From the NCBI GenBank assembly GCA_012927625.1, contig JABBOV010000004.1, forward strand, positions 226,124 through 290,123: 64,000 bases of DNA. Reading direction: 5' to 3'. This document shows, piece after piece, positions 17,761-27,287 of the stretch. Below the pieces are notes generated by a model that was not told the DNA's origin, searched no databases, and was given only the letters and a program-made list of their open reading frames with translations. The translations under genes were made by a program, and so were the position numbers. The DNA comes from Glaciimonas sp. (GTDB lineage: Bacteria > Pseudomonadota > Gammaproteobacteria > Burkholderiales > Burkholderiaceae_D). Numbering within the stretch: the first letter of the stretch is position 1; the number at the start of each line of letters is the position of its first letter.

Positions 17761-18117
17761 TTACCTGTGGCCGCGGCCACCGCCATTGCCACGAAAGCCA
17801 CGATCACCACCATGATCGCCACCATCATGCCTACGAAAACCACGATCACCACCATCATGCTCACGGAAATCGCGATCGCCATGATCGTCATATCCACGGA
17901 AGCCGTCGCCAGACCGATATCCAAAATTGAAGAATGCAGGTGGTCCAACATAAACTGGAGCCGCATAAACGGGAGCCGCATAATACACTGGCCGCGGCTG
18001 GTCATAAGGACTCGTGTCGTAATAGGCAGACGGATAGCCTGGCCCATATACCGCGCAACCACCAAGGGTGGATAGCATAATGAAAGCAAGTGCCAAACGT
18101 TTTGCTGGTATTTTCAT
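17761..18117 (-). CDS. Putative lipoprotein with Gly/Asp/Arg-rich repetitive C-terminus
   Basis: MKIPAKRLALAFIMLSTLGGC lipobox; tail HGDRDFREHDGGDRGFRRHDGGDHGGDRGFRGNGGG. Confidence 0.62.
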   Translation of the reverse strand: MKIPAKRLALAFIMLSTLGGCAVYGPGYPSAYYDTSPYDQPRPVYYAAPVYAAPVYVGPPAFFNFGYRSGDGFRGYDDHGDRDFREHDGGDRGFRRHDGGDHGGDRGFRGNGGGRGHR

Positions 18118-22577: not shown

Positions 22578-22895
22578 ATAAGTCCGAATTTTGCATAAAA
22601 AGCAAGGATTGTCGTGGGTGCTACTGTCAATTTAGTGCGCTAATCCCAAATTTTATAGAATAAGAAACATTGGCCCCTAATGATGCTCTTGTGGAATACG
22701 GAAGCCAAGCGGGATTGTGCTTGATGCAGAGCTAAAAGGCGAGGTAAATGGCGAGAACGTGGATGCGCAAGTGCCGTTTAATGTAGCGTTGGCAGTGCTT
22801 GCAGGCTGCTCGTTCGGCAGCTAGCGCTGCGATGCGTCAAGACAGCAGCCGGTGGATGGCTTATTATGTGCGCCCTTTGGATTAATGAGAGCGCC

Positions 22896-24146
22896 ATGAC
22901 AGACGCATGCGGAGTTGATTTCGGAACATCCAATTCCACCGTCGGCTGGAGTCGCCCCGGCCAGCCGGCCTTGCTGGCGCTGGAGGATGGCAAGCCGACC
23001 TTGCCGTCGGCGATTTTCTTCAATGCTGACGACGATACTGTGCAATACGGTCGCGCCGCACTGGCCGGTTATTTGAACGGCGCGGAAGGGCGGCTGATGC
23101 GCTCGATGAAGAGCTTGCTCGGCAGCAGCCTGATGGAAGGTCAGACCGAAGTGTTAGGGAACACCATGGCGTTCAAGTCGCTGCTGGCACAGTTCATCGG
23201 CGAGCTAAAACGGCGCGCTGAATCTGCGGCTGGGCGCAAATTCAGCCGTGCGGTAATGGGTCGGCCGGTCTTTTTTGTGGATGGTAACTCTGCCGCCGAC
23301 CGACTGGCGCAGAATACGCTGGCCGAAGTCGCGCAGATGGTCGGTTTCCAGGAAATTGATTTTCAGTTTGAGCCGATTGCCGCCGCCTTCGACTATGAAT
23401 CGCAGATTTCACGTGAAGAACTGGTGCTGATTGCTGATGTCGGCGGCGGTACTTCCGATTTTTCGCTGGTGCGCTTGTCGCCGCAGCGTGCCGGCAAGAT
23501 CGACCGCAGAAGCGATATTCTGGCCACCGGCGGCGTTCATCTGGGCGGTGCCGACTTTGATAAATATTTGAGCCTGGCGTGCGCGATGCCGTTGCTCGGT
23601 TATGGCAGTGCGCTTAATAACGGCGGCACGATACCGTCCAGCATTTATTTTAATCTCGCCACCTGGCACAACATCAATCTTGCCTACACCCAAAAAACCC
23701 GGGCGCAGTTGCAGGATATTTATCGCGATGCGATGGCGCGGGACCGGCTCGACTGCCTGCATGCGCTGATCGACCAGCGCGCCGGTCACTGGCTGGCGGG
23801 GCAGATGGAATTGGGCAAAATCGCGCTATCGGACGTCGAACTGACCCAACTCGACCTCGACCGCATGTCGCCGCCCCAAACGCTGGCGATTCACCGGGCC
23901 GATTTCGAGGCCGCCATTCACGGTCTGGTCGGCAATATTGAAAACACCGTCGCCAGTCTGCTGCGCGACGCCGGCGTCCCGGCAGCTGCGGTCGATACCG
24001 TATTTTTCACAGGCGGCTCTAGCGGCGTGCGTTTGTTGCGGGAAAGAATCGCTGCCGTGGTGCCGGATGCCAGACAGGTCGAAGGCGACCGCTTCGGCAG
24101 CATCGGCGCCGGATTGGCGCTGGATGCGCAGCGTAAGTTTGGATAA
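22896..24146 (+). CDS. Hsp70-family chaperone, YegD-like
   Basis: ACGVDFGTSNSTVGW, ADVGGGTSDFSLVRL, FFTGGSSGVRLLRERI. Confidence 0.87.
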   Translation: MTDACGVDFGTSNSTVGWSRPGQPALLALEDGKPTLPSAIFFNADDDTVQYGRAALAGYLNGAEGRLMRSMKSLLGSSLMEGQTEVLGNTMAFKSLLAQFIGELKRRAESAAGRKFSRAVMGRPVFFVDGNSAADRLAQNTLAEVAQMVGFQEIDFQFEPIAAAFDYESQISREELVLIADVGGGTSDFSLVRLSPQRAGKIDRRSDILATGGVHLGGADFDKYLSLACAMPLLGYGSALNNGGTIPSSIYFNLATWHNINLAYTQKTRAQLQDIYRDAMARDRLDCLHALIDQRAGHWLAGQMELGKIALSDVELTQLDLDRMSPPQTLAIHRADFEAAIHGLVGNIENTVASLLRDAGVPAAAVDTVFFTGGSSGVRLLRERIAAVVPDARQVEGDRFGSIGAGLALDAQRKFG

Positions 24147-24175: not shown

Positions 24176-24263
24176 GTCCACGAAAGGCACGAAAAACACG
24201 AAAAGACGGTATCTCAGAATGTATTTGATTGGTTTTTTCGTGACTTTCGTGTTTTTCGTGGAC
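24176..24263. repeat. Intergenic inverted repeat
   Basis: GTCCACGAAAggcaCGAAAAACACGAAAA...TTTTTTCGTGACTTTCGTGTTTTTCGTGGAC. Confidence 0.8.
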
Positions 24264-24285
24264 CGCTTTTGTTCTTTGGTTGCCT

Positions 24286-25080
24286 ATGACATTTGATATT
24301 CCTGCAACAATACTGGATGCGCTGACTGGCGCGCATGCGTCCTGGCAGCCGATATTGCGTGACGGTTTGCGGGCGGTGGCGTGCGCCGATGCCGGATACT
24401 TGCCGACGTTAGCAAGCAGCGCGTATCTGCCGACGGAAGGGCGCTTGTTCGCGGCCTTTGCGCAAGCGCTGGATACAGTACGTTATGTGCTGGTGGGCGA
24501 GGGGCCATATCCGCGTGCCGCGAGTGCGACCGGCGTGGCCTTCATGGATGGCGCGGTAGCGGGTTTGTGGTCGGTGCTGCCGGATGGCGGATTGTCAAAG
24601 CCGGTAAACAAGGCGACTTCGCTGCGCAATTTCATCAAGATGTTGCTGGTGGCAGACGGCCAGTTGCAAGTGGAAAATACTGCGGGCGCAGCAATCGCGC
24701 AAGTGGCGTTGAAGGCGCGTGTGATGGGTTCGACGCTGGTGCAAACTTTGCCTGACTTGCAGCGCAATCTGCTGGCGCAGGGATTTTTGCTGCTGAATGC
24801 ATCGCTGGTGTTTCGAGCCAATGTAGCGCCGGCCAAAGATGCGCGTGCCTGGCTGCCTTTTCTGGAGGTGGTTTTGCAGGCATTGGCGGCGCGGGCCGAG
24901 GTGCAAAGTGTACCGGCCCCAACGCTCGTGTTGTGGGGAAAAATCGCCGAGCGCCTGCAACCGTTGCAAGTGATTAACGCTTTTCCGCAGGTGTTGTCCG
25001 AGCATCCGTACAACTTGTCTTTCATCGCCCACGCACAAATGCAAGCTTTGTTTGCGCCGCTGCATTTGTTGCAAAAATAA
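24286..25080 (+). CDS. Divergent uracil-DNA glycosylase-like protein
   Basis: Collinear Ung-like motifs VRYVLVGEGPYPRAASATGVAF, NLLAQGFLLLNASLVFR, PTLVLWGKIAERL, VLSEHPYNLSF; start uncertain (ATG 24280 or 24286). Confidence 0.62.
   Translation: MTFDIPATILDALTGAHASWQPILRDGLRAVACADAGYLPTLASSAYLPTEGRLFAAFAQALDTVRYVLVGEGPYPRAASATGVAFMDGAVAGLWSVLPDGGLSKPVNKATSLRNFIKMLLVADGQLQVENTAGAAIAQVALKARVMGSTLVQTLPDLQRNLLAQGFLLLNASLVFRANVAPAKDARAWLPFLEVVLQALAARAEVQSVPAPTLVLWGKIAERLQPLQVINAFPQVLSEHPYNLSFIAHAQMQALFAPLHLLQK

Positions 25081-25199: not shown

Positions 25200-27287
<2,088 letters not shown>

Follow-up and report, generated by a model that had tools for sequence, protein, structure and literature searches.

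An NsaUNG-like uracil-DNA glycosylase homolog of Oxalobacteraceae with a Glu-Gly doublet in place of the catalytic Gln-Asp of family 1

In family 1 uracil-DNA glycosylases (UDGs), the Asp of motif A matters greatly, and Asn mutants lose orders of magnitude in activity. Other families of the same superfamily work without it. Family 4 UDGs carry an EG or EA doublet that lacks the Asp and are nonetheless robust uracil glycosylases relying on the His of motif B (PMC5387724). The evolutionary route by which UDG families passed from catalysis with the Asp to catalysis without it, or the reverse, is an open question, and a 2017 study of correlated mutations describes the way in which each family evolved its strategy as not understood (PMC5387724). 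The same question is raised by one gene in the window, the whole 64,000-nucleotide stretch of Glaciimonas sp. DNA analysed here, the product of which was described in an earlier note as a UDG-fold protein lacking the catalytic Asp. The gene, its relevant sites, and one neighbour lie at the following positions.

24286..25080, + strand: udg, encoding a putative NsaUNG-like uracil-DNA glycosylase with an EG-type motif A (open reading frame and homology)
24496..24516, + strand: motif A, GEGPYPR, residues 71-77 (E in 62/62 homologs; G in 32, S in 30)
24541..24543, + strand: Phe86, at the position of the uracil-stacking Phe77 in E. coli Ung (invariant, 62/62)
24796..24798, + strand: Asn171, aligned with the uracil-binding Asn123 of E. 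coli Ung and Asn80 of Tth UDGa (invariant, 62/62)
25003..25020, + strand: motif B, HPYNLS, residues 240-245 (H, P, Y, and N in 62/62)
25200..27287, - strand: uvrB, neighbour of udg (adjacent to udg in 22/30 Oxalobacteraceae loci)

The udg open reading frame begins with ATG and encodes a product of 264 amino acids with a single Cys, at residue 33. The motifs that had been aligned with family 1 Ung are all present (GEGPYPRAASATGVAF at residues 71-86, GFLLLNASLVFR, LVLWGKIAER, and EHPYNLSF), and that alignment is right. The UDG fold that had been proposed is likewise borne out by several searches. Among the ung models, the best match is NCBIfam PRK05254 (ung), with an E-value of 6e-16. Scores against the NCBIfam ung models are far under the model cut-offs, with 44.9 bits against the equivalog cut-off of 185.75 bits for TIGR00628, and the Pfam UDG match (E 6e-4) lies just under the curated gathering cut-off. 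In the PDB, phmmer matches entry 5x3g over the full length of the protein (E 2e-43), and a profile search recovers 5x3g and 5x3h at E 5e-94. When an AF2 model (pTM 0.73, from an alignment of 6 rows) was used for a Foldseek search, the top three matches were 5x3h/5x3g, ‘UNG crystal structure from Nitratifractor salsuginis’, the entry titles identifying 5x3g as wild-type NsaUNG and 5x3h as the Y81G variant. The pLDDT of the model is below 50 at residues 74-109, which form the active-site loop, and the model is weak for placing E72. By detectable homology and fold, the window protein is a member of the UDG superfamily, and the resemblance is far beyond chance. Its PDB matches in the phmmer and profile searches are led by NsaUNG and family 1 enzymes, and none of them was recognised as a family 4 entry. 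BdiUng of Bradyrhizobium diazoefficiens (PDB 5gn2), which is also a non-classical member of the superfamily, was considered as the nearest relative and ruled out as distant (Foldseek E 0.12, TM 0.27), 5x3g being the N. salsuginis enzyme.

NsaUNG, described by Li et al. (2017, FEBS J), reportedly excises uracil and resists Ugi. The window protein shares with it full-length homology (about 37% identity), the Pro-Arg following Tyr (DPYPR type), the VNRATSLRNF block, the EHPYN motif B, and D88. The N. salsuginis UNG publication is cited as concerning an ‘unconventional family 1’ UDG (PMC10776899). The window protein falls in this NsaUNG-like branch of UDG family 1 ([Q/E]xPYPR, VNRATSLRN, EHPYN), and the suggestion of a new UDG-like family was therefore too strong. 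The differences from NsaUNG lie in the doublet, which is QD in NsaUNG (GQDPYPR) but EG or ES in the window family, and in the residue following HPYN, which is His in NsaUNG but Leu, Ile, or Val in the window family. Because 5x3g has both GQDPYPR and EHPYN, the Pro after Tyr and the odd motif B are traits of the subfamily, and the exchange of His for Pro that had been singled out in the earlier note, while present, is not peculiar to this gene. Judged from sequence, only the paired replacement of QD by EG is informative, and the protein appears as an uncharacterised EG/ES variant within a known branch of family 1.

Set beside the E. coli Ung type of family 1 (TIGR00628), the window protein keeps the fold, the Tyr, Phe, Asn, and motif-B His, as well as W189 and a Leu at the intercalation position. 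The aligned counterparts (E. coli Ung/window protein) are Q63/E72, D64/G73, Y66/Y75, F77/F86, N123/N171, H187/H240, and L191/L244, His240 being aligned also with His155 of Tth UDGa. In place of the canonical motif A, GQDPY(H) with its catalytic Asp, the window protein has GEGPYPR, in which Gln becomes Glu72, Asp becomes Gly73, and the His after Tyr becomes Pro; the reported loss of the catalytic Asp is thus real. Motif B reads HPYNLS instead of HPSPLS, with the His and Leu kept, and an extra segment occupies residues 87-101. With the family 4 UDGa of Thermus thermophilus (GE(A/G)PG), the protein has in common the EG doublet, the absence of Asp, the motif-B His, and the uracil-binding Asn. In contrast to that enzyme, it has Tyr rather than Gly after the motif Pro (GEGPY), so that GE(A/G)PG is not matched, and its overall sequence is that of family 1 and NsaUNG. 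With its single Cys, the protein lacks the four-cysteine Fe-S cluster found in family 4. N89 of the Thermus enzyme, the motif-3 Asn that positions the water, is without a conserved counterpart, the corresponding position 179 varying among H, D, N, T, R, and others, and the family 4 mechanism is therefore incompletely copied; the idea that this motif-3 Asn substitutes for the Asp was rejected on the same grounds across the 62 homologs. Lastly, UdgX of Mycobacterium smegmatis (GEQPG, KRRIH loop) likewise has Glu as the second residue of motif A, but the KRRIH loop and the Gln at position 3 are missing from the window protein, and covalent DNA capture is thus not expected.

The residues of the active site are strictly conserved. 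Glu72, Tyr75, Phe86, Asn171, and His240 are invariant in 62/62 EG/ES homologs, the Tyr, Phe, Asn, and His noticed in the single sequence being among them, and the canonical Asp is absent from all 62, with only Gly or Ser at position 73. The two positions of the doublet go together: in every homolog, G or S at position 73 is accompanied by E at position 72, and D or N at position 73 is accompanied by Q among the homologs and family 1 enzymes, the sole exception being one distant MD. Pairing the window gene with each of four relatives gives dN/dS values of 0.16-0.24, and the codons of motif A vary synonymously only, their residues being fixed; the gene is under purifying selection. The Ser73 codons are all TCN, at least two steps from codons for Asp or Gly, and the ES and EG states are for this reason probably old.

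The gene is present in 32 of the 36 Oxalobacteraceae genomes searched (two of these as partial matches), and all 32 distinct Oxalobacteraceae homologs have GEGPYPR. The 30 homologs found elsewhere, in other Gammaproteobacteria and in a single order of Alphaproteobacteria, all have GESPYPR. They come from profile searches, in which 23 further carriers were seen among 369 genomes of the class and 6 of 7 genomes of the alphaproteobacterial order had a homolog. One GESPYPR homolog lies on a plasmid of Legionella adelaidensis, and distant relatives found with NsaUNG are also plasmid-borne. In a 60-genome set, the sole match outside Oxalobacteraceae (G059) turned out to be a canonical Ung. A phage or viral origin was rejected, homologs being absent from the viral contigs and phages searched. 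No QD member of the EG/ES subfamily was seen across ~1,150 sampled Pseudomonadota genomes, and more distant relatives have QD, or QN in Actinomycetota. A close homolog with a canonical motif had been named in advance as evidence against the reading of the gene as altered; no QD homolog nearer than N. salsuginis UNG was found. The tree unites the EG rows in a single clade, with support of 97 whether or not the motif is masked, and NsaUNG joins the whole EG/ES set (support 96-97). Once the motif is masked, the separation of NsaUNG from the E clade lacks support (51), and NsaUNG may lie just outside or inside; the E doublet may have arisen once, which is consistent with the tree.

Canonical Ung, taken as a TIGR00628 match above cut-off, is almost absent from carriers of the gene, being found in 1/59 carriers vs. 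14/48 non-carriers (pooled Fisher p 4e-5, uncorrected for relatedness). The carriers divide into 1/30 in Oxalobacteraceae and 0/29 elsewhere, and the non-carriers into 6/24 genomes of other Burkholderiales families and 8/24 of the class. In Oxalobacteraceae and in several lineages of Gammaproteobacteria, the EG/ES protein is found in place of the missing canonical Ung. Because many genomes scored as lacking Ung by TIGR00628 carry an EG/ES enzyme, the annotation of uracil repair would be incomplete in them. Most carriers have another PF03167 match, usually strong and of the family 4 type, and in two near-complete carriers (G975, 96%; G1110, 99%) no other UDG-superfamily match was detected. In the window’s genome, the EG doublet recurs on a family 4 scaffold in a UDG of the family 4 type (L001, G000:C24; GEGPG), and the other matches are a family 6-like protein and one with GQAPG/HPSPRN, all assigned by motif. 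Since most carriers, including this genome, have a family 4-type match, the bulk of uracil repair could fall to another enzyme.

Taking the residues and their conservation together, the protein is probably a working uracil-DNA glycosylase of the NsaUNG type, with Glu72 taking over the positioning of water; its catalytic activity, the role of Glu72, and the substrate are what we infer from sequence comparison. The enzyme would flip uracil out of DNA and stack it on Phe86, where Asn171 would read the base and Tyr75 would exclude thymine. His240 would stabilise the leaving uracilate, as in family 1 enzymes. In place of the Asp, Glu72 and the small residue 73 (Gly or Ser) may position or activate the water, and may orient a backbone NH toward uracil O2 like the E-G/A doublet of family 4. 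A doublet swap from the family 1 to the family 4 state (QD to EG or ES) would then have been made naturally on a family 1 scaffold, and always as a pair. A comparable swap has been made by hand in the opposite direction. The Tth UDGa double mutant E41Q-G42D (EG to QD) is only 5-fold below wild type, the single mutants, set against the double mutant, are 167-fold (E41Q) and 17-fold (G42D) worse, and the two positions are strongly coupled (PMC5387724). In UdgX, E52 activates the nucleophile, including water if present, ‘as in the family 4 UDGs’ (PMC10359453). A literature search on the motif strings returned nothing relevant, and an activity report for any EG/ES member was not found in the literature. 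Retained catalysis is the simplest reading because the EG doublet matches that of active family 4 UDGs, and the protein is probably functioning rather than dead because the residue neighbouring the lost Asp is always Glu, as in another working UDG branch. Altered chemistry, as the earlier note had put it, is thus likeliest in the narrow sense of another residue handling the water, while the missing Asp does not by itself entail lost or strange chemistry, EG being the doublet of active family 4 enzymes.

An alternative possibility is that the protein is a UDG with little or no catalytic activity, retained as a scaffold or for binding uracil-DNA or abasic DNA, and that the family 4 enzyme excises uracil. 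The canonical Asp is missing from every homolog, most carriers have a second superfamily member of the family 4 type, and there is a precedent in vaccinia D4, a UDG with a role independent of catalysis (PMC1936997). Even so, such a role appears unlikely and the suggestion of a binding-only protein is disfavoured, as a pure binder would not need the full set of His240, Asn171, Tyr75, and Phe86 that is kept in all 62 homologs, the invariant Glu goes together with a small residue, a pairing shared with active family 4 enzymes, and in two near-complete genomes it is the only UDG that was detected. It is also conceivable, if rather improbable, that the protein is an active glycosylase whose specificity was widened or shifted by the doublet change, with another lesion (e.g., hypoxanthine, xanthine, or 5-hydroxymethyluracil) or single-stranded DNA as its main substrate. 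Families 5 and 6, which lack the Asp, act on other deaminated bases (PMC5387724), a coexisting family 4 enzyme that removes uracil leaves room for specialisation, and position 84 (V/Y) and the loop at residues 87-110 are unlike family 1. However, Tyr75, which would exclude thymine from a tight pocket, is invariant together with Asn171 and Phe86, and all three favour uracil. A decaying pseudogene, or an artefact of sequencing or annotation in the window’s genome, might be read from the missing Asp and the Pfam score under the gathering cut-off, but the intact reading frame, the low dN/dS, the purely synonymous variation of motif A, and the identical motif in 32 distinct Oxalobacteraceae sequences make this exceedingly improbable, and it is refuted by conservation.

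For the preferred reading of a working enzyme with a Glu in charge of the water, the wider proposition would be that of an uncharacterised subfamily that substitutes for Ung in Oxalobacteraceae and in some other Gammaproteobacteria. On its family 1 scaffold, the catalytic Asp would have been replaced by the invariant Glu one residue upstream, through an independent doublet switch that brought a distinct way of activating water and perhaps a distinct range of substrates; the prospects of this proposition seem evenly balanced. The EG/ES clade (62 sampled sequences) lies next to NsaUNG, a QD enzyme of solved structure, and differs from it at the very doublet that was hand-swapped in family 4. It would thereby offer a natural, ready-made comparison of EG, ES, and QD on one scaffold.

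The surroundings of the gene vary with the lineage. Adjacency to uvrB, like the near absence of canonical Ung from carriers, favours a role in repair. The 22 Oxalobacteraceae loci in which udg adjoins uvrB comprise 18 that are co-directional, with udg downstream of uvrB, and 4 that are convergent, all of the latter in the window’s genus. The downstream neighbour in gammaproteobacterial carriers is often ubiG (annotated) or an OmpR-type regulator (read from sequence), so the link to uvrB is not general. Directly upstream of udg in the window, positions 22866-24146 encode a short Hsp70-like protein of 426 amino acids, which among the Oxalobacteraceae loci read occurs only in the window’s genus. 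Between this gene and udg, an inverted repeat of CACGAAA-like units (GTCCACGAAAGGCACGAAAAACACGAAAA ... TTTTTTCGTGACTTTCGTGTTTTTCGTGGAC) spans positions 24177-24265. Weaker copies of the unit lie at positions 17790-17845, and the window has a total of 6 matches vs. 0.6 expected.

More distant UDG-like groups were also encountered. One of these (L073 in G006, L048, L105, and L106) has GQDPYP[R/E/A] without the VNRATSLRN block and is hosted by an Oxalobacteraceae genome, another proteobacterial genome, and plasmids of Variovorax and Ensifer, the Variovorax protein being annotated as a ‘hypothetical protein’. Two further proteins, encoded on plasmids of Embleya and Streptomyces (L104 and L107), contain a UDG-like domain with GQNPYPR inside large proteins, and that of Streptomyces is annotated as an ADP-ribosyltransferase-domain protein.
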